From Pseudanabaena sp. FACHB-1998 (GTDB taxonomy: Bacteria > Cyanobacteriota > Cyanobacteriia > Pseudanabaenales > Pseudanabaenaceae), in NCBI RefSeq assembly GCF_014696355.1, contig NZ_JACJQA010000041.1:1-64000 (forward strand): 64,000 nt of DNA, given 5' to 3'. The notes below the pieces were generated by a model that had not been told where the DNA came from, did not search any database, and saw only the letters and a list, made by a program, of their open reading frames with translations. Below, in pieces: positions 479-29,137 of the stretch; position 1 is the stretch's first letter, and each line of letters opens with the position of its first letter. The position numbers and the translations under genes are program-made.

Positions 479-545
479 TACACTTGGCGACAGCTATAAC
501 AGAAAATATTTCTAATAAGTAATCGCTGTTTGCTTTTCTGTGAAG

Positions 546-663
546 TGGCGATCGTGTTTTTTGGGGTTGATGGGGCGATCGCTGTTTGATTTTTTGAAGT
601 GGCGATCGTGATTTTGGGTTTTGAAGGGGCGATCGCTGTTTGATTTTTTTGGAGAGGCGATCA
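546..663 (-). repeat. HIP1-based tandem array, minus orientation (left flank of AIPR gene)
   Basis: About five GCGATCG-centred units of 26-28 bp; read on the minus strand they resemble the units of the 22.5-30 kb island (CGATCGCC, then a C/A-rich stretch, then AAAA). Bases 575-650 are nearly identical to 2777-2854. Confidence 0.75.
575..650 (+). repeat. Direct repeat copy A flanking the AIPR gene
   Basis: Aligns with 2777-2854. The last 56 bases (595-650 against 2799-2854) differ at two positions; a two-base indel lies before them. Both copies contain HIP1 cores followed by TGTTTGATTT. Confidence 0.8.
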
Positions 664-750
664 TGCTGTTGAAGTGTTGCGGATCTGATCGCTGGAGCGG
701 ATATTAACTCAGTTCTCTATCGCCAAAAGCCCTTACCGAAAATGATCGAG

Positions 751-2592
751 CTAATCTTCGCTATTGTCCATTTCAATAATCTCATCGCCATCTTCCAGCA
801 CAATATCTTCAATATCTTTTACAGAAATATCCAAATCATTTAAAGCATCTTTTATTCTCTCGTAATAAGATAGTTTAAATAAGAATTTTATTATTCCATC
901 TGTCGTTTTTTCTTCATTGTTTTCTATTTCAAGTTGTTTCCTAACAAATTGATCTATAAATTTAAAGGTTTTAAGAATAGACTCTTTTTCATTTTTTTCA
1001 TAGGTATTAATAATGTACTTATTTACATTTAGTTTTTTGTCAAATTTCGCTTGCAAATAATTTGTAAAAGAAACCTTAAATAAAGCAATTAGATGATAAT
1101 AAGCTGTTTCAAATGTATCTTCATAAGAGCAAAAATAATAGCCGCAAACTATATCAAATATATAAAATGCACATAACATATCTTCAAATGATGTTCTGTC
1201 GTTAAATATTTTTTCATACAGTCCATCTTGATGTTCTCTATGTGAAACGAAAATTAGCTCTTTGCTAGTTTCCTTGTAATGCTTGTAGTTATTTATGACA
1301 CTTACAGGATCTTGCAAATGATAAGCTAGATATACATTGGCAAAAATATGGTTGGTAACTTTAGTGATACCTTCTGGAAGTTCGCGAAACTCATCGCGCC
1401 TTTTTTCATACCAAAATTTAGTTTGATATGAATCATTTTGCAGCCTAATTTGGATGTCATCATTAGCACAAAAGTCGCGATCATATATGGGATTCTGTGA
1501 ATTAGTGTATCTAGTTACATTTAAATCAAAATCAGTTCCTCCTGATTTCAAAAGACGTAAAGTAAGCAAAGACTCACTATCCATTTGAATACGCTTTGTC
1601 GGAGACGCATTTTTATAAGCTCGGTAAATAGAATAAACAGTTTGTGCGCCGTTTATAATTTGTAACCCAGTGAGCTGTAACTTTTCAGCCTTCTTCCCAA
1701 TTTTAGGCAATAGATATGTAATAGCAGTAATACCATTATTGTAATACCAAAAATAAGCAGGGTTTTCAATTGCTGTTTTTTCTATTTCCTCATTAAATTC
1801 TGATTGTAGGAGAGGATTTCTAACATTCTTATAGAAAAGTGCAAAACCATATTTTTCAAATAAATCATATATACTTTTAGGACGAAGTAAAAACATATAT
1901 GCCTCAAAAGGCTTTTGTATTTCAATACGTCCATTCCCTTGTACAATCTCAATATCAATGAGACTTTCCTCTGGATTTTGATAGGTTTCTAGAGGATTTA
2001 AAGGCTCAATTTTTTTATATTTTCTATCTATGTAATCTAATTTAATTCGATTAATATCAATAACTTCAAACTTGATTTTTTCGTCATTATTTATGAACGC
2101 CTTAATATTCTCATCGGCTCCTCTTCTATATTGAGAAAGGGTCAAAAAAATAAATTTAACTTCTCCATTCTCTTTGAGATGTTTATCCAACTCTTCTACT
2201 TTTAATTTCAACTTATCATTAAAGTCGTCTTTCTCACCTCGCAAAATTGTGGTAAAGTCACTCAAAGCTTTGAGTATTTCATCTTTGTCTGATTCTTTTT
2301 CCGAATTACCCGCATTGTTCCACTTCGACTGAACAACATAGAAAATCTTATCGCCGTAATTGTTTATCTTATCAAAGACGATATCGCAAGAGCTATCATT
2401 ATCTCCATCAGTGATAAAACTTGTGTAGCTAGATATCTTTCCATAAAATTCAAGAAACCAAATTAAAAGAGCATAGGATTTCTGGTTGTTGATAGCATTT
2501 CTATGTTTTTGTATGAATTTATCATCTTTATACTTTTCTAAGAGATCATTTAGTTCGCCATCTATAATGTTGTAAAAATCTTTAGTAAACAT
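751..2592 (-). CDS. AIPR-family putative abortive-infection / phage-resistance protein
   Basis: 613 aa. The central part matches the AIPR family (abortive infection phage resistance): FEAYMFLLRPKSIYDLFEKYG, a YYNNGITAIT segment and LQIINGAQTVYSIYRA. The N-terminal ~120 residues look like a PD-(D/E)XK nuclease fold: CDIVFDK gives the Asp and YVVQSKW the QxK. The probable role is phage defence by nucleic-acid cleavage; this rests on family knowledge and has not been tested here. The gene is much more AT-rich than its neighbours, contains no complete HIP1 octamer and sits between near-identical direct repeats, all suggesting horizontal acquisition. It appears to be a single-gene system, as no partner reads with it. 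The start is the first Met after an AT-rich leader without a strong ribosome-binding site. Confidence 0.8.
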   Translation of the reverse strand: MFTKDFYNIIDGELNDLLEKYKDDKFIQKHRNAINNQKSYALLIWFLEFYGKISSYTSFITDGDNDSSCDIVFDKINNYGDKIFYVVQSKWNNAGNSEKESDKDEILKALSDFTTILRGEKDDFNDKLKLKVEELDKHLKENGEVKFIFLTLSQYRRGADENIKAFINNDEKIKFEVIDINRIKLDYIDRKYKKIEPLNPLETYQNPEESLIDIEIVQGNGRIEIQKPFEAYMFLLRPKSIYDLFEKYGFALFYKNVRNPLLQSEFNEEIEKTAIENPAYFWYYNNGITAITYLLPKIGKKAEKLQLTGLQIINGAQTVYSIYRAYKNASPTKRIQMDSESLLTLRLLKSGGTDFDLNVTRYTNSQNPIYDRDFCANDDIQIRLQNDSYQTKFWYEKRRDEFRELPEGITKVTNHIFANVYLAYHLQDPVSVINNYKHYKETSKELIFVSHREHQDGLYEKIFNDRTSFEDMLCAFYIFDIVCGYYFCSYEDTFETAYYHLIALFKVSFTNYLQAKFDKKLNVNKYIINTYEKNEKESILKTFKFIDQFVRKQLEIENNEEKTTDGIIKFLFKLSYYERIKDALNDLDISVKDIEDIVLEDGDEIIEMDNSED

Positions 2593-2956
2593 ATAAAGTT
2601 AAAGAGAAATGAGTATTTATTGAATTTTTTATAGCAACTGGTGCGGATTTTCGACAGAAGATTAAATCTTATATAGAATATACTACATACTCTCCAACTC
2701 CTTTAGCACAGTTGCAAACTTAAATTTCATTTCATGATAACCATTTTCAAGCTTCTAGTATTTCAGTTTACTAAATGCGATCGCTGTTTGATTTGTTGTG
2801 AAGTGGCGATCGTGATTTGGGGTTTTGAAGGGGCGATCGCTGTTTGATTTTTTGTGGAGGAGGTTCCACTTAATGCTGATGATAAGCCACAAATGAGTAC
2901 TTACCTGTAATCAGGCAAACCAGTTAGTATATTTTGTATTGTAGCTATGTTCGAGT
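2593..2956. other. Intergenic region with HIP1 repeats
   Basis: 364 bp AT-rich spacer between the AIPR gene and the next minus-strand gene. It holds the HIP1 array at 2777-2854. I see no further gene or RNA. Confidence 0.6.
2777..2854 (+). repeat. Direct repeat copy B / HIP1 array right of the AIPR gene
   Basis: Second copy of the 575-650 repeat, same orientation. Homologous recombination between the copies would remove about 2.2 kb containing only the AIPR gene. Confidence 0.8.
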
Positions 2957-3397
2957 TTAGCAACGCAAAGCTGTATTGAGATAATTACTAAACAAATGAA
3001 TTCCTAAGAAACTTAAAGTTACATAGACAAATAAAACAATAAATCCACTCACTAATAGATTGATAGCAAAAAATAGCAATAACGCTATAATGCGATGGGC
3101 GATTTTGGTTAAGGGACGGGTGTGATGAGGTGCGGCTATATCTTGAACTTTTATCCGTTTTTTATAACGATCTTTACCAATCAATAAAACAAAGAAATAT
3201 CTTGCAAAGAGCAAGTTAATCACAAACCTTACATCTATCAATTTCGGTGAAGGCTTGGGAAGGGCGGAGGAAATTACATCTTTAATATTTTTATGTTCTT
3301 CGGTACTCAATTTCTCAATGATAGCCTCAGGGATGCGATCCATGTAGTAGTCAGCATCTCTTAGGCTATAGTCCTTGATTGTATAATTTGAAGGCAT
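2957..3397 (-). CDS. Hypothetical membrane protein
   Basis: 146 aa, family not recognised. A soluble, charged N-terminal half (Lys/Glu-rich to about residue 60) is followed by a short hydrophobic stretch (FVINLLFARYFFVLLI) and a long hydrophobic C-terminal stretch (LLLFFAINLLVSGFIVLFVY), probably giving two membrane passes. It stands alone, with a perfect palindrome 140 bp upstream of its start and a HIP1 array beyond its 3' end. No function is proposed. Confidence 0.6.
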   Translation of the reverse strand: MPSNYTIKDYSLRDADYYMDRIPEAIIEKLSTEEHKNIKDVISSALPKPSPKLIDVRFVINLLFARYFFVLLIGKDRYKKRIKVQDIAAPHHTRPLTKIAHRIIALLLFFAINLLVSGFIVLFVYVTLSFLGIHLFSNYLNTALRC

Positions 3398-3537: not shown

Positions 3538-3593
3538 CAGCAAATAATTTATGAACAAGGGGCTTAAGCCCCTTGTTCATAAATTATTTGCTG
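3538..3593. terminator. Perfect 56-bp palindrome
   Basis: Uninterrupted inverted repeat centred on GGGGCTTAAGCCCC, arms of 28 bp and no loop. It lies between the M48-like gene 3' end and the promoter region of the 2957-3397 gene and could terminate transcription on either strand. Confidence 0.6.
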
Positions 3594-22259: not shown

Positions 22260-22613
22260 CTCTGTCGTTTTCCTATTGGTTTAAAGTTGAAAATAATGTA
22301 AACGGTTAGGATAAAAGCCTGCTCAGGCACACTTGCTTAGCAAAAGGTCTACAGTTCATTAATTTAGATACGTCCAAAAAAATTATCCGAAAGATCTAAA
22401 GTCTATGGACTATAGCAGTTTGTTGAGACTTTCCCTTCCCTCTATAAGCTGATCTAACGAACTGACGAGATTACCCTACCAAAGGAATTTCTCAATTAAA
22501 CTTGACAGCATCTGAGGGTGGTAGTCATGAGGAGGTTTATTAGGTAGCGATCGCTCAATTATCATCCACTAGTACAACACGATCGCCCAACCACCCACAA
22601 AAAACGCGATCGC
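22260..22613. other. Spacer with toxin-gene relic and HIP1 units
   Basis: 354 bp at the left border of the toxin-antitoxin island. It contains the toxin-end relic at 22517-22543 and two HIP1 units. Otherwise nothing recognised. Confidence 0.5.
22517..22543 (+). pseudogene. Relic of the 3' end of a RelE/YafQ-like toxin gene
   Basis: The frame reads GGSHEEVY-stop, matching VGSHDEVY-stop at the end of the intact toxin gene at 25801-26088. In both cases HIP1 repeats (AGCGATCGC) follow about 5 bp later. Nothing further upstream matches. Confidence 0.5.
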
Positions 22614-22618
22614 CTAGT
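22580..22618 (+). repeat. HIP1-based units (two)
   Basis: Two units (CGATCGCCCAACCACCCAC..., then CGATCGCC). The array runs into the 3' end of the yoeB gene. Confidence 0.7.
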
Positions 22619-22889
22619 AGTGATAACGAGCTTGAAGAAACTCAATGCGATCATCTTTAATGCGATAGACCATTCGATGTTCTTGAGTTAATCTTCTTGA
22701 CCATGTATTTTCACCAACATATTTGAGAGGTTCAGGCTTGCCAATTCCCTTAAATGGATCATCAAGAACCGATTCAACTAGTTCCATCGCTCGAACAGCA
22801 ATTTTGCGATCCGTATTTACCCAATACACTAGATCTTGTCTGAATTGTGACACAAAAACAGCATCACGCGGTTTCTTTGGCACTGCCAA
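22614..22889 (-). CDS. yoeB: YoeB/Txe-family mRNA interferase toxin
   Basis: 91 aa. RelE-superfamily ribosome-dependent RNase. The C-terminal signature is complete: EPLKYVGENTWSRRLTQEHRMVYRI, then FLQARYHY, including the Glu, Arg and terminal His-Tyr used by YoeB. It overlaps the end of the upstream antitoxin gene by 26 bp, the usual coupled arrangement. Neutralised by the YefM protein encoded upstream. Confidence 0.93.
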   Translation of the reverse strand: MAVPKKPRDAVFVSQFRQDLVYWVNTDRKIAVRAMELVESVLDDPFKGIGKPEPLKYVGENTWSRRLTQEHRMVYRIKDDRIEFLQARYHY

Positions 22890-23160
22890 GTCCCACCTCC
22901 TGACTGAGTTGATTCAAAGTTTTTGGCAAAACTGTTCTCGAATCCGCCTCTTCTAAAGCTTCAAATAAACGAATTGCATTTTTAGGAGATTTAAGTAAAT
23001 GCAAAGTTTCAAGCAAACTTGATAGCTCTTTAGCTGAAATCACTGCCACATTTTCGCGGTCGCCACGTTCCAAAATGACAAAGTTGTTTTCTGCAATCAC
23101 GCGATCGCAAATTTCTGAGAATTGGTTGAGTGCTTGATCGTAATTGACTGTAAGACTCAT
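22864..23160 (-). CDS. yefM: YefM/Phd-family antitoxin
   Basis: 98 aa. N-terminal Phd/YefM DNA-binding fold (NYDQALNQFSEICDRVIAENNFVILERGDRENVAVIS) and a C-terminal toxin-binding tail. First gene of the yefM-yoeB operon. It is likely autoregulatory through the TGTACA palindrome at 23175-23194, just upstream of the start. Confidence 0.93.
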   Translation of the reverse strand: MSLTVNYDQALNQFSEICDRVIAENNFVILERGDRENVAVISAKELSSLLETLHLLKSPKNAIRLFEALEEADSRTVLPKTLNQLSQEVGLGSAKETA

Positions 23161-23194: not shown

Positions 23195-23232
23195 CATATT
23201 ATATAGCTGATTTTTGAGAAAAAAGTATAAGG

Positions 23233-23311
23233 CGATCGCCAATTTATCCCCCTCACAAAAAACATGATCGTCCCGCCACTCACCAAAAACGAGATCGCCC
23301 AATTACTCACA
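23233..23311 (+). repeat. HIP1-based array (three units)
   Basis: Units begin at GGCGATCGCC, ATGATCGTCC and GAGATCGCCC, separated by C/A-rich stretches ending in AAAA. It lies between the yefM operon and the divergent DUF433 gene. Confidence 0.75.
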
Positions 23312-23358
23312 TGAAATAGCTCTTATGCTAAGCTTGAGCAGCGTGATTGTAAGCAAAT

Positions 23359-23589
23359 ATGAACTATCGAAGCATCATAACAATTGAGCCAGATAAGCGT
23401 GGTGGAAAGCCTTGCATTAGGCGGATGCGTATTACTGTGTATGATGTTTTAGGATGGTTAGCGTCGGGAATGTCCCATGCAGAAATTTTAGATGACTTTC
23501 CAGAATTGACAGAGCAGGATATTAGGGCTTGTTTAGAGTTTGCTGCGGATAGAGAACATAGATTGATGGCTTTTGTGGGTGCTGCGTGA
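23359..23589 (+). CDS. DUF433-family antitoxin
   Basis: 76 aa. DUF433 winged-helix-like protein (GGKPCIRRMRITVYDVLGWLASGMSHAEILDDFPELTEQDIRACLEFAAD). In cyanobacteria these genes are regularly followed by DUF5615 PIN-like genes, as here, so the role as antitoxin is by family context. It overlaps the next gene by 4 bp (GTGA). Confidence 0.88.
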   Translation: MNYRSIITIEPDKRGGKPCIRRMRITVYDVLGWLASGMSHAEILDDFPELTEQDIRACLEFAADREHRLMAFVGAA

Positions 23590-23918
23590 GGTTGCTTTTT
23601 GATCAAAATTTGAATCGTAAGTTGGAAGGAAGATTAGCTGATATTTTTCCTGATTGCAGCAATGTTCAGTTTCATGATTTAGATGATAAAACTGATACTG
23701 AGATATGGGATTTTGCTGAAATCAATAATTTCTATATCGTGACTCAAGATGCGGATTTTGCAGAGAGAAGTTGTTTGTGTGGTTCGCCTCCAAAGGTGAT
23801 TTGGTTACGTTGTGGAAATGTGCCAACGAGTCAGGTCGAACAAATATTAAGTTTCGGGAGTGGAGTGATTAATGGGTTGAAAGATGCTGTAAATATAGAC
23901 TGCCTAGAGGTTTACTAA
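23586..23918 (+). CDS. DUF5615-family PIN-like toxin
   Basis: 110 aa. The Mut7-C/DUF5615 PIN-like signature is MRLLFDQNLNRKL (Asp plus N) with IVTQDADFAE as the second acidic motif; probably a metal-dependent RNase. It begins with GTG inside the GTGA overlap with the DUF433 gene. Confidence 0.88.
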   Translation: MRLLFDQNLNRKLEGRLADIFPDCSNVQFHDLDDKTDTEIWDFAEINNFYIVTQDADFAERSCLCGSPPKVIWLRCGNVPTSQVEQILSFGSGVINGLKDAVNIDCLEVY

Positions 23919-23921
23919 ACG

Positions 23922-23955
23922 CGATCGCCCAATCACCCACCAAAACGTGATCTCC
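23922..23955 (+). repeat. HIP1-based units (two)
   Basis: One complete CGATCGCCCAATCACCCACC unit and one degenerate unit (GTGATCTCC) between convergent genes. Confidence 0.65.
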
Positions 23956-23959
23956 AAGC

Positions 23960-24580
23960 TTACATACATATTTTTGAGCCTAAATGTTTTAGTACTTGTA
24001 ATACTTCGTAAAGCTCATTATTAGGGTTTACCAAAGAAAATAATCGCGAATTTGCATACTCGTTTTGTGAAGTTTTCAAAAACAAAAATTCATTCCCATT
24101 GGTAATCATGCCAAATGTTGATTGAACGGTTTCCGAATTACTCAACATATAAGCTAAAGCTTGTGGAATCGCTCTTGTTACGGCAAAATCACTTCGCTTT
24201 GATTCAATGACTAATAACCAAAGCTGATTCTTTATTACCAATACATCGATCCGCCCTCGAATTATGGTTCCTTCATCTTTCATTTCTAAGGCTATAGCGG
24301 TTTCTGTCTCGATCCGAAATGGCTTGTGATAAAAGCCAGCGAGATCTAACAATGGTGCAAGCACTACCATCTTGACTGTATTTTCTAACATTGGTGGATC
24401 TTCCATCAATTCTAAAAAATTAGCTTTCACCCGATCTAATAAATGGAGATCTTCTTGTCTTAATGGTGTAAAATCATCCAACCATTCCGTAAAAAAAATA
24501 GGATCTTGAGATATCTGAAGCCCAAAATTTTGCTTTAATTCCTTGAAAGTTACATCTTTTGCTGCGATCGCCTGAACCAT
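23960..24580 (-). CDS. HsdR-N-type PD-(D/E)XK nuclease-like protein, stand-alone
   Basis: 206 aa. Resembles the N-terminal nuclease domain of type I restriction R subunits (HSDR_N): FRIETETAIAL, then GRIDVLVIKNQLWLLVIESKRSD, giving the D...ExK catalytic triad, then FGMITNGNEFLFLK. There is no helicase domain and no methylase or specificity subunit nearby. Stand-alone copies are frequent in cyanobacteria and of unknown role; nuclease activity is inferred from the intact motif. Confidence 0.85.
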   Translation of the reverse strand: MVQAIAAKDVTFKELKQNFGLQISQDPIFFTEWLDDFTPLRQEDLHLLDRVKANFLELMEDPPMLENTVKMVVLAPLLDLAGFYHKPFRIETETAIALEMKDEGTIIRGRIDVLVIKNQLWLLVIESKRSDFAVTRAIPQALAYMLSNSETVQSTFGMITNGNEFLFLKTSQNEYANSRLFSLVNPNNELYEVLQVLKHLGSKICM

Positions 24581-24639
24581 GATGAATTCTAGGTAGAAGT
24601 AATAATCTTAATAGTAGTGCAAAAACAAAATATCCAACG

Positions 24640-24752
24640 CGATCGCCCAACCACCCCCCTAAAAGTCCAACGCGATCGCCCAATCATCCTTTTAACAAAA
24701 CACAATCGCCCAATCACCCACCAAAACGTTCTCGCCCAACCACTCACAAGTC
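24640..24752 (+). repeat. HIP1-based array (four units)
   Basis: Units CGATCGCCCAACCACC..., CGATCGCCCAATCATCC..., CAATCGCCCAATCACCC... and a degenerate TCTCGCCCAACCACTC. The last one forms an inverted repeat CGTTCTCG/CGAGAACG (24727-24764) that may terminate the brnTA operon. Confidence 0.75.
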
Positions 24753-24767
24753 TGGACGAGAACGATT

Positions 24768-25028
24768 TTAATTAGATTGACTTTGAGCAAGCTCTTCTCT
24801 CAATACTCTACGCAATATACTTTCTAGAGGTTCTTGAGTTTGTTGATGGATATGTTGACGCAAGGCTTCGTTGATGGATGTTTGATAATTATCGCCACCT
24901 TTGTTGTTTGCTTCTGCGCGAAACCATTCTAAGATCTCATCATCTAGCCGAATTGTAATACGAGTTTTGCCTTTGATTGGCTCGATCGCGCCACGGTTTC
25001 CTTTACTGAAGTCATATTCTGTTTCCAT
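24768..25028 (-). CDS. brnA: BrnA-family antitoxin
   Basis: 86 aa. KTRITIRLDDEILEWFRAEANNKGGDNYQTSINEALRQHI is the BrnA ribbon-helix-helix signature. It follows brnT by 5 bp, the normal toxin-first order of this family, and likely represses the shared promoter. Confidence 0.92.
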   Translation of the reverse strand: METEYDFSKGNRGAIEPIKGKTRITIRLDDEILEWFRAEANNKGGDNYQTSINEALRQHIHQQTQEPLESILRRVLREELAQSQSN

Positions 25029-25033
25029 GTTTT

Positions 25034-25300
25034 TTAATCCTCTTCATATTGTTTACGTTCGCGACACTCTGCTAAACGTGTTGAAATTAGGCGAATGTCT
25101 TCACCCCGCCATGTGAAAACAATGACCAAAATTCTGCCAAAGGCATCCATGCCAATAATGACAAATCGATCTTCATCAAATCTGTTGTCTGGAATGGTGA
25201 TGGCGAGATCGTCTGAAAATACAGATACTGCATCGGCGAACTCAATGCCATGTTTTTGCAGGTTTGATGAGTCTTTGTTTTTGTCCCATTGATACTTTAT
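25034..25300 (-). CDS. brnT: BrnT-family ribonuclease toxin with an ATA at the start position
   Basis: 88 codons. The translation KYQWDKNKDSSNLQKHGIEFADAV... continues through DRFVIIGMDAFGRILVIVFT to a RERKQYEED C-terminus, all BrnT hallmarks. The family normally starts MKYxWD; here the Met codon position is ATA (25300-25298), directly preceded by an in-frame TAG. No ATG, GTG or TTG occurs in frame before about codon 50. Either a rare ATA start is used or the toxin has been silenced by a start-codon mutation while the antitoxin remained intact. No ribosome-binding site is visible. Confidence 0.85.
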   Translation of the reverse strand: MKYQWDKNKDSSNLQKHGIEFADAVSVFSDDLAITIPDNRFDEDRFVIIGMDAFGRILVIVFTWRGEDIRLISTRLAECRERKQYEED

Positions 25301-25303
25301 CTA

Positions 25304-25339
25304 ATTATAGTGTGTACAAGTGTACATACAACTCTGCCA
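25304..25339 (-). promoter_or_regulatory. brnTA promoter with paired TGTACA operator
   Basis: On the minus strand: TTGTAT, 16 bp, TATAAT (25304-25309). The spacer contains TGTACA-CT-TGTACA. The -10 ends 3 bp before the brnT coding frame, so the transcript is probably leaderless or nearly so. The operator fits autoregulation. Confidence 0.65.
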
Positions 25340-25355
25340 TAAATTTGTATCAAAG

Positions 25356-25510
25356 CGATCGCCCCCTCACTCACAAAAAAGTACAACACGATCGCACCAT
25401 CCCACACAAAAACGCGATCACCCACTTTCCCATCTCAAAAACACGATCACCCAATTACTCCCCTTAGAAAACGCGATCGCCCAACCATTCAACAAAAAAA
25501 CGCGATCGCC
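25356..25510 (+). repeat. HIP1-based array (six to seven units)
   Basis: Successive units of 25-30 bp: CGATCGCCCCCTCACTC..., CGATCGCACCATCCC..., CGATCACCCACTTTCC..., CGATCACCCAATTACTCC..., CGATCGCCCAACCATTC... and CGATCGCC. The last unit joins the conserved promoter block at 25518. Confidence 0.8.
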
Positions 25511-25517
25511 TAGAGTC

Positions 25518-25540
25518 GTTTGATGTTAGTGAGTTAGAAT
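25518..25540 (+). promoter_or_regulatory. Conserved toxin-antitoxin promoter block, copy 1
   Basis: GTTTGATGTTAGTGAG followed by TTAGAAT. It matches 28338-28360 at 22 of 23 bases, also just after a HIP1 array. TAGAAT (25535-25540) is a likely -10. Confidence 0.6.
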
Positions 25541-25595
25541 GAGAAATATCCAGAATATAGTTGTTAAGAAATTTTGTAATAGTTAAGGAAGTCTT

Positions 25596-25826
25596 ATGAT
25601 GGTCTTTCAGCAAATCATTGATTCTATTGAGGGTTTATCAATAGAAGATCAGGATTATTTGTTTGAGCTAATCCGTAAGCGACGAATTGAAAGTCGGCGG
25701 CAGGAGATTTTGGCTAATTCTGAGGAGGTAAGGAAATCATTTAAAGAGGGAACAGCAAAAAGAGGAAGTGTAGATGATTTGATTGCTGATTTACTGGGGG
25801 ATGATGATGCAAGTTGTTTGGAGTAA
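25596..25826 (+). CDS. Putative antitoxin paired with a RelE-like toxin
   Basis: 76 aa. Helical acidic/basic protein (FQQIIDSIEGLSIEDQDYLFELIRKRRIESRRQEIL) like small cyanobacterial antitoxin partners; the acidic C-terminus (LIADLLGDDD) is typical of a flexible toxin-binding tail. It overlaps the toxin gene. The family name is not known to me; the call rests on context. Confidence 0.72.
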   Translation: MMVFQQIIDSIEGLSIEDQDYLFELIRKRRIESRRQEILANSEEVRKSFKEGTAKRGSVDDLIADLLGDDDASCLE

Positions 25827-26088
25827 TGGATTTAAACGGTCTTTCAAAAAAATTACAAAGAAAAATCCGCAATTAACTGAGCCAATTGTAAAAGCATTAA
25901 GGCTGTTGGGAGATGATCCATTTACGCCTTCATTAAAGTCTCATAAGTTGGGAGGAAATTTAGCTGGATTATGGTCTTGTTCTGTGGCTTATGATTGTAG
26001 GATTGTTTTTAGATTTTCTGACGATGAAGAGTTATTGGAGATGGTGATTTTTTTGGTTGATGTTGGGAGTCATGATGAGGTTTATTAA
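25801..26088 (+). CDS. RelE/YafQ-like toxin
   Basis: About 95 aa. RelE-superfamily fold: VVWSNGFKRSFKKITKKNPQL, then SLKSHKLGGNLAGLWSCSVAYDCRIVFRF and a final VDVGSHDEVY. Three consecutive ATG codons (25801, 25804, 25807) could start it; all overlap the antitoxin end by about 20-26 bp. Upstream in-frame codons (TTG at 25783) are less likely. Probably a ribosome-dependent mRNA interferase. Confidence 0.85.
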   Translation: MMMQVVWSNGFKRSFKKITKKNPQLTEPIVKALRLLGDDPFTPSLKSHKLGGNLAGLWSCSVAYDCRIVFRFSDDEELLEMVIFLVDVGSHDEVY

Positions 26089-26092
26089 ATAG

Positions 26093-26190
26093 CGATCGCC
26101 CACTCATCCCCTCAAAAAAACGCGATCGCCCAACCAACCACCAAAAACACGATCGCCCAATTACCTCAAAAAAAGCGATCGCCCAATCAG
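26093..26190 (+). repeat. HIP1-based array (four units)
   Basis: Four units of 22-28 bp between convergent toxin genes. Orientation is the same as the other arrays in the island although the gene on the right is on the minus strand. Confidence 0.78.
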
Positions 26191-26194
26191 TCGT

Positions 26195-26494
26195 CTAATT
26201 TAAACGATTACGCCATTTTTTAGCGTTTTGAGAACAATGAAAGACAGCGTAAACAGTTATTGTGTCCTCAAAGTATTCATAAAAAATAGCGTAAGGGAAT
26301 CGGCGCACTAAGGCTCTGCGGTATTGTTCGTGGACAAATACATATATTTCAGGGTTTCTTTTAATAGTTTGGATGGAAGCATCAATACATCTCAAAAACT
26401 CTTCTCCTAATCCAAGTTCCCTTTCTTGATACCAATCATAGGCTTCTGTAATGTCTTGTTCCGCTTCTGGGAGAATGATAAGACTCTTAGCCAT
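26195..26494 (-). CDS. RelE/ParE-family toxin
   Basis: 99 aa. LIILPEAEQDITEAYDWYQERELGLGEEFLRCIDASIQTIKRNPE, then RRALVRRFPYAIFYEYFEDTITVYAVFHCSQNAKKWRNRL, a standard ParE/RelE toxin with the conserved RRFPY strand. It overlaps the antitoxin gene by 8 bp. Confidence 0.92.
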   Translation of the reverse strand: MAKSLIILPEAEQDITEAYDWYQERELGLGEEFLRCIDASIQTIKRNPEIYVFVHEQYRRALVRRFPYAIFYEYFEDTITVYAVFHCSQNAKKWRNRLN

Positions 26495-26714
26495 TTCTTT
26501 GATTATTACGAATTCTTGCTTTTACTGAGTCCCACGAACTTGCTAAACTAGGGTCTTGTGAGTGAGATAGTTTTCTTTTAGCTAGTTCTTCTTTTTGCCA
26601 GTCTAATACTGGAACATTAGCTGGTTGAGTTGCAATGTTATCCCATAAATCCTCAAGAAGTTGTAGCTTTTCTGAAAGTCCTAGCTCAAAAATTGGTGCA
26701 AATTCTACGGTCAT
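26487..26714 (-). CDS. Addiction-module antitoxin (unstable antitoxin, PF09720 type)
   Basis: 75 aa from ATG at 26714. LGLSEKLQLLEDLWDNIATQPANVPVLDWQKEELAKR matches the 'addiction module protein' family that partners ParE/RelE toxins; the C-terminus (SWDSVKARIRN) is the toxin-binding part. Longer in-frame starts exist upstream but run into the HIP1 array and give no family-like sequence. Confidence 0.9.
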   Translation of the reverse strand: MTVEFAPIFELGLSEKLQLLEDLWDNIATQPANVPVLDWQKEELAKRKLSHSQDPSLASSWDSVKARIRNNQRNG

Positions 26715-26783
26715 AAACGTAAGTCCATGTAGAGATAATAAACTTACTTTACTGCAAAAACAAGAAATGTGTGTAGCATAAGG

Positions 26784-26845
26784 CGATCGCCCACCCCTCC
26801 ACAAAAACACAATCGCCCACTCATCCCCAAAAAACGCGATCTCTC
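26784..26845 (+). repeat. HIP1-based array (three units)
   Basis: Units CGATCGCCCACCCCTCC..., CAATCGCCCACTCATCC... and CGATCTCTC between divergent toxin-antitoxin operons. Confidence 0.75.
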
Positions 26846-26926
26846 AATAAATTTGATAACAGTTATTGCTATTTACTGTTATTGCAGCGAGAATATTAAT
26901 ATCAAGATTATTAGAGGACTAAATTT

Positions 26927-27184
26927 ATGAATGTGTCTCTAACGCCTGAGCTAGAAAGCTTTATACAAGGAAAGGTTAGTACTGGCTTGTACTATTCTGC
27001 TAGTGAGGTTGTGCGTGAGGGTTTGAGATTGTTGCAAGAACGGGATCAACTCCAGCAGTTGCGTTTGCAGGAGTTACGTCAAGATATTCAGGCAGGTTTA
27101 AATAGTGGTGATGCTACGCCTCTTGATATACAGGCAGTGAAGGCAAAAGCACGGCAGCGCAAGCAACAGAAGCAGGTGCAATGA
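26927..27184 (+). CDS. parD: ParD-family antitoxin
   Basis: 85 aa. Ribbon-helix-helix N-terminus (MNVSLTPELESFIQGKVSTGLYYSASEVVREGLRLLQERD) is the type II ParD signature; a charged C-terminal tail follows. It overlaps parE by 4 bp. Confidence 0.93.
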   Translation: MNVSLTPELESFIQGKVSTGLYYSASEVVREGLRLLQERDQLQQLRLQELRQDIQAGLNSGDATPLDIQAVKAKARQRKQQKQVQ

Positions 27185-27480
27185 TGGCAATCATTCTGAA
27201 GCGTCCGCTTGCTGAGTTGGATTTACTGGATATTTGGGATTATATTGCAGATGATAGTCCAGATAGAGCAGATGATTTTTTAGACCGAATAGAAGGTAAG
27301 TTGTTGACTTTAGCTCAGAATTCAGGTTTGGGACGGAAAAGACCAGAGTTATTGCCAGATTTACGGAGCTTTCCTATTGGTAATTATGTTGTGTTTTATC
27401 AGCAGATTGAGGGTGGTATTGATGTGATTCGATTGCTTCATGGTTCAAAGGATATTGAGCAAGTATTTAAACAGAACTAA
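27181..27480 (+). CDS. parE: ParE-family toxin
   Basis: 99 aa. LKRPLAELDLLDIWDYIADDSPDRADDFLDRIEGKLLTLAQNSGLGRKRPELLPDLRSFPIGNYVVFYQ is a typical ParE fold (gyrase poison or related). It begins within the parD stop (ATGATG). Confidence 0.93.
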   Translation: MMAIILKRPLAELDLLDIWDYIADDSPDRADDFLDRIEGKLLTLAQNSGLGRKRPELLPDLRSFPIGNYVVFYQQIEGGIDVIRLLHGSKDIEQVFKQN

Positions 27481-27487
27481 TGTAGGG

Positions 27488-27522
27488 CGATCGCCAAATC
27501 ATCCACAAAAAAGCGATCGCCT
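27488..27522 (+). repeat. HIP1-based units (two)
   Basis: Two HIP1 units, followed after 17 bp by a TAGAAT -10-like sequence before the next antitoxin gene. Confidence 0.65.
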
Positions 27523-27578
27523 ATGGTTATTGCGCTAGGATAGAATATTTAAAAGGACTGATTTGGAGAGGTAGTTAA

Positions 27579-27860
27579 GTGAAGGCAAAAGGCATAACTA
27601 AGCGCGTCACAGTTTCTTTAACGTCTGATGTTTTTAGTAGTTTGCCCTCACAGGGGCGGATGAATTGGTTGCGGGAAGCGATCGCAGAGAAGTTGCAACG
27701 GGAAAACCGATTAGTTTTGAGTTCTGCTGAGTCTAAGGCAATTGATCGCATTGCTAAACCTATTAAGGAAGATGAGTGGGTGACGATAGGAACTCTAGAT
27801 GAGGAGTTTGATTTGGAACAGGTGAATAGGGAGATTAAGTTGCGTGGCTATACGCGCTAA
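27579..27860 (+). CDS. Putative antitoxin of a RelE-like pair
   Basis: 93 aa from GTG at 27579, with GGAGAG 7-12 bp upstream. TKRVTVSLTSDVFSSLPSQGRMNWLREAIAEKLQ looks like a ribbon-helix-helix, and KEDEWVTIGTLDEEFDLEQVNREI a flexible toxin-binding tail. The toxin gene overlaps its end by 17 bp. The family is not identified; context decides. Confidence 0.72.
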   Translation: MKAKGITKRVTVSLTSDVFSSLPSQGRMNWLREAIAEKLQRENRLVLSSAESKAIDRIAKPIKEDEWVTIGTLDEEFDLEQVNREIKLRGYTR

Positions 27861-28173
27861 GTATTTTTTGCAAGTGCATCCGCTTGTGATATCAGAGGAT
27901 TTGCCAATTTTGCTGATGGTTTTGAGGACTGATTTTGAGGGTTTGTTCAAGCCGATTTTGCAGTCATACCCTGATACTGGTGGGATTTTGAGTTGCCATA
28001 AGTTAAAGGGTGGTTTGCGTGGTTATCACGCTTTGGAGATTCGCTTTGATGAGGCCGAGTATAGGCTGGTCTATCGGATTTTTGAAAAGCCTGCCCCGAA
28101 AAGGGTAAGGGTGATTAGTTTCGATATTCATGATCATGCTTATGAGAAGGCGAAAGAAAGGGTAATGGGTTGA
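27844..28173 (+). CDS. RelE-like toxin
   Basis: 109 aa from GTG at 27844. The core (LKGGLRGYHALEIRFDEAEYRLVYRIFEKPAPKRVRVISFDIHDHAYEKAKER) matches RelE-like toxins with a C-terminal HDHAYEKA motif. Probably an mRNA interferase. Confidence 0.82.
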   Translation: MAIRAKYFLQVHPLVISEDLPILLMVLRTDFEGLFKPILQSYPDTGGILSCHKLKGGLRGYHALEIRFDEAEYRLVYRIFEKPAPKRVRVISFDIHDHAYEKAKERVMG

Positions 28174-28190
28174 GTTGCTTTTTATAAACG

Positions 28191-28330
28191 CGATCGCCCA
28201 TCCACTCACAAAAAACGCGATCGCCCAACCATCCACAAAAACGCGATCGCCCACTCACCCACAAAAAACGCGATCGCCAAAACACTCATCAAAATATGAT
28301 CGCCCAATTACCTCAAAAGACGAGATCGCC
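28191..28330 (+). repeat. HIP1-based array (five to six units)
   Basis: Units of 26-27 bp: CGATCGCCCATCCACTC, CGATCGCCCAACCATCC, CGATCGCCCACTCACCC, CGATCGCCAAAACACTC, then two degenerate units. It leads into the promoter block at 28338. Confidence 0.82.
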
Positions 28331-28337
28331 ACAAGCT

Positions 28338-28360
28338 GTTTGATGTTATTGAGTTAGAAT
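28338..28360 (+). promoter_or_regulatory. Conserved toxin-antitoxin promoter block, copy 2
   Basis: GTTTGATGTTATTGAG followed by TTAGAAT, near-identical to 25518-25540. TAGAAT (28355-28360) is a likely -10. Confidence 0.6.
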
Positions 28361-28394
28361 TATATAAAGTTGGTTTGTTCATGAGAGTTTCAAT

Positions 28395-28604
28395 ATGCAA
28401 ATACTCCTTAACGATGAGAAGACAAGAGAAATGCTTACGGAAATCTTAATTGATTTGATTAAGACTAGAAAGGAGCTTTTTGCGGAAATATTCCAAGATG
28501 CTTTAGAAGAGGTCGGTTTGGGGAATGCGATCGCTGAGGGTAGAAGAAATGAATTTGTTCCTGAAGAGAATATCTTTGCGCTTCTGGATGGTGATGTTGC
28601 ATGA
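28395..28604 (+). CDS. Putative antitoxin of a RelE pair
   Basis: 69 aa. Predicted helical (EILIDLIKTRKELFAEIFQDALEEVGLGNAIAEGRR) with an acidic end (EENIFALLDGDVA), a common form of cyanobacterial RelE antitoxin. It overlaps the toxin start by 4 bp (ATGA). Confidence 0.75.
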   Translation: MQILLNDEKTREMLTEILIDLIKTRKELFAEIFQDALEEVGLGNAIAEGRRNEFVPEENIFALLDGDVA

Positions 28605-28867
28605 ATGTTAGGTTTGAGTCTAGGTTTGAAAAGGACTTGAAGTTAGTCAAGGATCGTAATCTTTTGGCAAGGTTGAAGCAGGTGATTTTGACCTGTAAGC
28701 AAGCTGAATCGGTGGGGGAAATCAATAACCTAAAAAAGATGCAGGGATATGATAGTTTTTATCGCATTCGTCTAGGTGATTACAGGATAGGGATAGAAGT
28801 TTTGGAAAATGAAGTAATTTTTGTAAGATTTTTGCACCGTAAGGATATTTACAAGTTTTTCCCTTAA
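28601..28867 (+). CDS. relE: RelE-family toxin
   Basis: 88 aa. VRFESRFEKDLKLVKDRNLLARLKQVI, then LKKMQGYDSFYRIRLGDYRIGIEVLENEVIFVRFLHRKDIYKFFP, a complete RelE fold with the YRIRLGDYRIG strand and C-terminal HRKDIY. Ribosome-dependent mRNA interferase by family. Confidence 0.92.
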   Translation: MNVRFESRFEKDLKLVKDRNLLARLKQVILTCKQAESVGEINNLKKMQGYDSFYRIRLGDYRIGIEVLENEVIFVRFLHRKDIYKFFP

Positions 28868-28870
28868 AAG

Positions 28871-29137
28871 CGATCGCCCACTCACCCACAAAAAACACGA
28901 TCGCACAATCACTCACAAAAAACACGATCGCCCAATCATCACCCAAAACGCGATCGTCCAATCATCACCCAAAACACGATCGCCTAACCATTCACAAAAA
29001 ACATGATCGCCCATTCACCCACCTAAAACGCGATCGCCCAACCACTCACAAAAACGCGATCGCCCATTCACTCACAAAAAACGCGATCGCCCAACCAACC
29101 ACAAAAAACATGATCGCCCAATCATCCCCCTAACAAA
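28871..29137 (+). repeat. Longest HIP1-based tandem array (ten units)
   Basis: Ten head-to-tail units of 26-27 bp, consensus CGATCGCCCAAYCACTCAC followed by AAAAAACR. Successive units differ by a few substitutions; there is no unique spacer sequence, so it is a tandem repeat rather than a CRISPR array. No gene in this stretch. Confidence 0.88.

Follow-up and report, generated by a model that had tools for sequence, protein, structure and literature searches.

Does the AIPR-family gene at the start of a 64,000-nucleotide stretch of the Pseudanabaena sp. FACHB-1998 genome (contig NZ_JACJQA010000041.1, positions 1 to 64,000; hereafter the window) belong to a mobile defence cassette? A preliminary description of the window had noted that the gene is framed by near-identical direct repeats, and had proposed that it uses arrays of the palindrome HIP1 as landing sites. 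Based on comparisons with relatives, we consider it likely that the AIPR gene represents one cassette of a genus-wide repeat-bounded system, in which cassettes are exchanged via homologous recombination between directional GT-rich arrays. In the loci examined, the sequences show unit boundaries at the arrays, crossovers inside them, a fixed orientation of each cassette, sharing between species, and one pair of alleles that differ by a single cassette together with one array.

The two repeats (575-650 and 2777-2854) are identical in 74 of 78 aligned columns and in 54 of 56 positions of their best ungapped 56-mer (595 versus 2799), which agrees with the similarity initially reported. Both form the cores of longer tandem arrays, whose units carry HIP1 (GCGATCGC) or close variants at a spacing of ~27 bp. 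The AIPR gene is the only gene called between the two arrays (Table 1), so that the repeats do flank this gene alone, as had been described.

Arrays of this kind occur at many places in the source genome (G000; 4.78 Mb, 64 contigs). The right array copy has at least 21 BLAST matches there, counting itself, with 40 out of 132 candidates scored. A pattern of three array sites has 75 matches, some of which are runs inside genes, versus none for the reversed pattern. On contigs C41 and C23, arrays alternate with small gene pairs. The array family was matched in all 25 genomes of the genus that were searched (35 candidates scored per genome). Genes were called with our own codon-usage script, not Prodigal, and array-like runs inside genes of >250 aa were excluded. 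Control loci (278 kb) contained three array-like runs, two of them inside called genes and the third outside called genes, in an open frame running off the end of the stretch. Across 18 loci, 92.4% of the steps from one GATC to the next measure 25-30 nt, the array definition itself restricting steps to 20-35 nt. The spacers are strongly strand-biased (G 0.43, C 0.07, G+T 0.77), with control 65-mers averaging 0.56 on their better strand.

The arrays also extend to a plasmid and to other cyanobacteria. Plasmid ABRG53f of Pseudanabaena sp. ABRG5-3 carries, according to the annotation of the record itself, a HigA/RelE-ParE pair between arrays, and likewise a PemK/MazF toxin accompanied by a small partner. 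In a genome from another cyanobacterial family (G040; loci L260, L261, L293 and L294), arrays with a flavour of their own and different spacers bound an Unstab_antitox/ParE pair, XisH/XisI (twice) and a DUF2442 gene; all 11 arrays on four contigs with at least two arrays (seven taken) are uniformly oriented, as judged by G+T majority. G030, from the family of the source genome and another genus, has a pair with a YoeB-type toxin between two arrays. GT-rich spacers were discarded as a general mark of such arrays, being present in Pseudanabaena, G040 and G129 and not in G030 (0.570). Class-wide, 63 of 116 genomes match the array pattern, many of the matches being visibly short-period or coding runs, so that this figure is no census. 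The left array had no match in 50,697 phage records, one exact array pattern had none in viral contigs, and an Rfam scan of five loci returned no matches.

The content of the intervals between arrays was assessed at 25 loci, comprising 20 regions from 13 relatives, taken among the matches listed, and five loci of the source genome. These loci yielded 82 inter-array intervals with a median length of 643.5 bp and a total of 143 genes, and arrays often stand 600-750 bp apart. A single gene occupies 38 of the intervals, two genes 35 and three to five genes the remaining nine; both genes face the same way in every two-gene interval (35/35). The 25 of 46 Pfam families listed include those of toxin-antitoxin (TA) systems, such as ParE (14), PemK/MazF (8), YoeB, PIN, HicB-like and Phd/YefM (6 each), CopG (5), and BrnA (4), alongside the TA-like or unknown families DUF433, DUF6883 and DUF4926 (8 each) and DUF5615 (4). 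Families named as toxin, antitoxin or addiction module account for 60 matches in 12 Pfam families, where one protein may match two, and NCBIfam agrees with Pfam on this content. No named TA family had two or more members in a control set of 106 small genes from the M48 loci, among 25 of the 84 families listed. Elsewhere in the source genome, 20 genes adjoining other arrays were scanned and many proved TA-like, among them Fic (weakly matching MazE), XisH/XisI, Phd/ParE, YoeB, BrnT, DUF2442/DUF4160, DUF5615, and a weak PIN match.

Proteins of the DUF6883 and DUF4926 families (8 of the 143 each) are placed between arrays in the manner of TA pairs. They are candidates for an uncharacterised TA or defence unit, with example loci presumably at L183:7159-7688 and L187:8684-9264, as taken from pair sizes and not from a per-protein table.

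The intervals behave as discrete units with a fixed direction. For this analysis the 25 loci were joined by three (L205, L206 and L209) from a locus marked by genes for 424-aa and 317-aa proteins, giving 28 loci and 83 cassettes. The 424-aa locus comprises 20 regions, to which L197 also belongs; G021 and G024 carry it and were left out, and G023 has only a paralog. We identified 84 homologous cassette pairs (≥50% amino acid identity), 82 of them at ≥80%. Neighbouring cassettes differed on 75 of the 76 sides of these pairs that could be scored (92 of 168 sides were unscorable). Once the arrays were turned one way, all 74 pairs located at different loci, as defined by flanking large genes, had the cassette on the same strand, as did a further seven pairs at the same locus. 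The 74 different-locus pairs have a median nucleotide identity of 92.5%. Measured on the shorter member, homology stops no more than 30 nt short of each array edge in 58 of them and no more than 60 nt short in 65. Of the 83 cassettes, 75 fall into 23 families, which account for 42 placements at additional loci; were orientation free, 42 agreements would have a chance probability of ~2e-13 by our own arithmetic, in which placements are treated as independent.

Array direction is likewise consistent within a locus, agreeing in all 129 scored cases across the 28 loci (three of 132 were tied and left unscored). With respect to the arrays, genes face both ways (up 51/50, down 49/48), and orientation to the repeats is kept in 56 of 56 gene families. 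It was the same for all 161 gene pairs at ≥80% identity and for both pairs at 60-80%, and the rule is lost among remote pairs (5 same and 4 opposite at 40-60%; 24 and 20 below 40%). A fixed direction for each family is expected if exchange takes place between homologous sites in direct orientation.

The array ends next to the cassettes show where the crossovers fall. When 74 homologous pairs were compared with 600 random ones, the 50 nt of the right array adjoining the cassette were more alike in homologous than in random pairs (0.723 versus 0.632, p=1.5e-9), and those of the left array slightly so (0.664 versus 0.630, p=0.009), these p-values treating related pairs as independent. The distal array ends resembled random pairs (0.653 versus 0.650; 0.642 versus 0.630), as did the 100 bases beyond. 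Since proximal array units travel with the cassette, unlike the distal units and the outer flanks, the breakpoints of exchange lie inside the arrays. In the alignment of one four-member family, identity sets in at the final GCGATC on the left side and stops at the stop codon beside the right array; a second family, in which two of six rows were not homologous, was set aside.

A pair of alleles was found at the 424-aa locus. The left flank is common to G014 and G017 as far as an array, as is a VapBC-type segment (91%) beyond it; between flank and segment, only G014 has an extra cassette (77- and 75-aa genes) together with one array. The single array of G017 aligns to both arrays of G014. The VapC-type frame of G014 contains an in-frame stop and no gene was called there. 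At the same locus, G000 and G005 have segments of these two cassettes in opposite order, the G005 copies being incomplete. Sharing between species is seen in 153 cassette gene pairs between different genomes, with a median amino acid identity of 94.6% versus a median of 88.2% for two core proteins of those genome pairs, a thin yardstick, and a cassette more alike than the core proteins in 125 of the 153.

Homologous recombination between arrays is the best supported account of these observations, explaining the direction, unit boundaries and breakpoints as well as gain or loss together with one array. A cassette would typically consist of a single small gene or of two that are co-directional, often a type II TA system, with a GT-rich tandem array of ~27-bp HIP1 units on either side, both arrays being in direct orientation. 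It would be gained, lost or moved when an adjoining array recombines with another, whether in the same DNA or in DNA coming in from outside. With directional homologous arrays, it would keep its orientation to the repeats and leave or bring one array. RecA, which favours GT-rich DNA, may be the agent in a RecA-type homologous recombination, with natural transformation or plasmids as possible sources of DNA; the AIPR gene may have been captured in the same way as the other cassettes. ComEC is present in 24 of the 25 genus genomes, which, along with the plasmid-borne cluster, indicates that routes of DNA entry exist. The model predicts excision leaving one array, dependence on recA, and the orientation rule.

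The stronger co-travel of the right proximal unit than of the left is what an attC-like site would give, and could instead suggest that a dedicated site-specific recombinase, or a methylation-directed nuclease, acts on HIP1, making the arrays true recombination sites and not passive homology. HIP1 alone is palindromic and would allow insertion in both orientations, which argues against a recombinase reading only HIP1 given that 74 of 74 pairs keep one, and we regard this explanation as quite unlikely. A role of the arrays as insulators or terminators, favoured near TA operons and only co-inherited while the cassettes spread by other means such as insertion sequences (IS) or plasmids, is very improbable. 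TA operons could gain from insulation, and in one well-aligned family the right array begins just past the stop codon; such a role leaves unexplained why orientation to the repeats is fixed regardless of gene direction, the edge-to-edge homology of cassettes that have non-homologous neighbours, and the co-travel of proximal, not distal, array units.

Serial small cassettes, each with a repeat, also raise the question of integrons, and an integron integrase (TIGR02249) scored over the curated cut-off in 12 of the 25 genus genomes. The source genome was not among them (best E=1.8e-7), and the array system is thus independent of the integron. Our own strict scan for attC sites came up empty both in the 19 array loci (231 kb) and in the control sequence (278 kb); it recovered canonical sites in two of nine integrase loci (L222 and L227), and divergent attC would be missed. 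Eight of the nine integrase loci had no array outside large genes. The other, L220 of G007, has three arrays, two of them ~16-17 kb from the integrase gene and one directly at its 3' end, and here the array and integron systems meet at least once. That the cassettes are those of a solo-attC or chromosomal integron which happen to carry HIP1 repeats would accord with L220 and with the 12 integrase-bearing genomes, and is highly improbable in light of the source genome, the eight loci and the attC scan; we therefore rejected an integron reading of the arrays.

We also considered whether the HIP1 arrays constitute a purpose-built exchange platform, that is, a cyanobacterial counterpart of the integron in which TA and defence cassettes from a common pool would recombine at directional arrays in place of attC, worked by a recombination factor of its own or by a RecA-guided mechanism, and recurring in at least one other family (G040). 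We view this reading as tentative and rather doubtful.

The product of the AIPR gene matches the Pfam family with E=1.2e-35 (124.1 bits versus a cut-off of 25). Its sole PADLOC match is AbiU (E=7.8e-27, residues 73-557), a model that has no curated cut-off, and NCBIfam MzaE matched one protein of the cassette set, taken to be the AIPR protein, at 2e-13. The G+C content of the gene is 0.299, compared with 0.418 for the window, and it contains no HIP1 octamer versus ~3.1 expected at window density, a modest deficit. The earlier characterisation as AT-rich and HIP1-free hence holds for this gene and fails as a general cassette mark, as cassette genes have an overall G+C content of 0.384 ± 0.028, and a general scarcity of HIP1 was rejected (1.23 per kb in cassette genes versus 1.44 per kb in large genes at the same loci). 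The nearest near-full-length relatives (73-75%) are from a Bacteroidetes metagenome-assembled genome (MAG), Dolichospermum, Anabaena and an uncultured cyanobacterium, with another from a Methylomonas MAG at 66%; the value rises to 82% in two partial matches. No arrays were found near AIPR relatives elsewhere in the stretches taken at 19 loci. Only remote AIPR proteins (25-36% identity) were detected in six of 37 other genomes of the family, and one more such gene (28% identity) lies elsewhere in the source genome, at C32:28622-29581 (L078). The AIPR gene is apparently a recent outsider that occupies a position standard for cassettes.

The M48 peptidase gene to the right of the AIPR locus is present in 25 of 25 relatives, and a search for an empty site by means of this gene was abandoned, its left neighbours being too variable in 22 genomes for an allele to be recognised. 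With the contig edge inside an IS630-type transposase on the left and a rearranged neighbourhood on the right, no empty allele of the AIPR site could be recognised. Flanking of an immobile AIPR gene by dispersed intergenic repeats through chance alone would fit the large number of arrays in the source genome and the want of a close copy in relatives; we judge it unlikely, as at most one such run lay outside called genes in the 278 kb of control loci, both repeat copies are directly oriented, and an AbiU-like gene fits the notion of a defence cassette. The suggestion that defence cassettes use HIP1 arrays is thus strongly supported as a general idea in the genus loci examined, and stops short of the movement of the AIPR gene itself.

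Several points weigh against array-mediated exchange or its extension to the AIPR gene. Exchange is deduced here from sequence comparison. The loci for content analysis were chosen because their arrays are closely spaced, a bias towards small cassettes, and the TA-like DUF433 (6) and DUF5615 (5) are also common among the control small genes, along with Mut7-C (3) and XisI (2). Two array sites of the source genome, at C3 (cyclase) and C23:197 kb (GIY-YIG), had no clear TA neighbour. At L220:19307-19389, a HIP1 array starts at the 3' end of the integron integrase gene, the sole such meeting seen. Relatedness among pairs in the array comparison and the two-protein core yardstick belong here as well, as do the closest genome pairs, which show little or no excess of cassette identity (G019/G020, 93.3 versus 95.8 and 97.6; G007/G025, 96.4 versus 96.1 and 96.2). 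Finally, no close AIPR copy was found in the 37 other family genomes searched. Without a close relative in the genus, the mobility of the AIPR cassette is argued by analogy, from its anatomy and from that absence.

Directly left of the AIPR array, at 41-478, lies a fragment of an IS630-type DDE transposase (DDE_3) at the contig edge, and the contig break is probably situated in a multi-copy IS. A composite transposon or IS-borne unit, with a transposase gene on each side, does not fit; the transposase is on the left only, nothing in Pfam matches the neighbour on the right (2957-3397), and the flanking repeats are direct arrays. A perfect, spacer-free inverted repeat of 28+28 bases (3538-3593) between a 146-aa open reading frame (ORF) and the M48 gene is a candidate terminator or miniature element. 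Among 22 compared genomes of the genus (L081-L102), most have a different gene to the left of the M48 peptidase, marking a frequent rearrangement breakpoint. Further into the window, the island at 22-30 kb had been likened to the AIPR cassette, and it indeed proved to be of the same kind, its TA genes lying between arrays of uniform direction (Table 1).

Table 1 Arrays and cassette genes of the window (arrows denote array orientation)
Feature	Position	Strand	Remarks
Left HIP1 tandem array	522-692	+	6 GATC sites from 548; 27/54-bp units, '>' orientation
AIPR-family protein, cassette gene	751-2592	-	613 aa, AbiU-like; Pfam PF10592, PADLOC AbiU
Right HIP1 tandem array	2777-2860	+	3 GATC sites; orientation as left array
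Start of second cluster: array, YoeB toxin, Phd/YefM antitoxin	22547-23160	-	Array at 22547 '<'; toxin 22614-22883; antitoxin 22864-23160
Array, 54-aa ORF, DUF5615 protein	within 23232-25354		Array at 23232 '<'; ORF 23425 (+); DUF5615 23592-23918 (+)
HSDR_N protein, BrnA antitoxin	within 23232-25354		HSDR_N 23960-24580 (-); BrnA 24768-25028 (-)
Array, 76-aa gene, YafQ-type toxin, array	25355-26189		Arrays at 25355 '<' and 26092-26189 '<'; toxin 25801-26088 (+)
ParE/Unstab_antitox pair, ParD/ParE pair, small genes	26195-28189		Pairs 26195-26714 (-) and 26927-27480 (+); small genes 27660, 27916
Two arrays around 57-aa ORF	28190-29124	-	Arrays 28190-28331 and 28865-29124 '<'

On present evidence, single TA or defence units appear to be shuffled between species with no need of an integron or transposon, the sole requirement being a directional HIP1-based repeat. 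Array boundaries offer a rule for finding TA and defence genes, and unknown pairs between arrays, such as DUF6883/DUF4926, become candidates. The function of HIP1 in cyanobacteria is an open question, and the exchange platform, if real, would give it a testable role. By title and abstract opening, no description of repeat-bounded TA cassettes in cyanobacteria was found in the open literature, subscription papers lying largely outside this scope.

Among known systems, abortive-infection proteins of the AbiU/AIPR type share with the protein studied here the match to the AbiU model and an AIPR domain above cut-off; the gene described here differs in standing alone between arrays. HIP1 has been treated as a dispersed oligomer (PMC4390886), and a term search of the main text of that article gave no occurrences of 'tandem', 'array', 'cluster' or 'toxin'; the motif is shared, and is found here in tandem arrays. 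Integrons and superintegrons resemble the array system in their serial small cassettes with one repeat each, fixed orientation and cassette-wise exchange between species. Many cassettes of the Vibrio superintegrons are TA systems. Unlike integrons, the Pseudanabaena cassettes have HIP1 tandem arrays as boundaries, several separate loci per genome, and genes facing either way, with no integrase over the cut-off in the source genome and no attC in array loci under the strict scan. In the minimal mobile elements of Neisseria, cassettes are swapped by homologous recombination in shared flanks. As with the arrays, exchange there proceeds by flanking homology in a transformable host with no recombinase; the homology in Neisseria is provided by conserved genes at one site, whereas here it is provided by a dispersed repeat with many landing sites.

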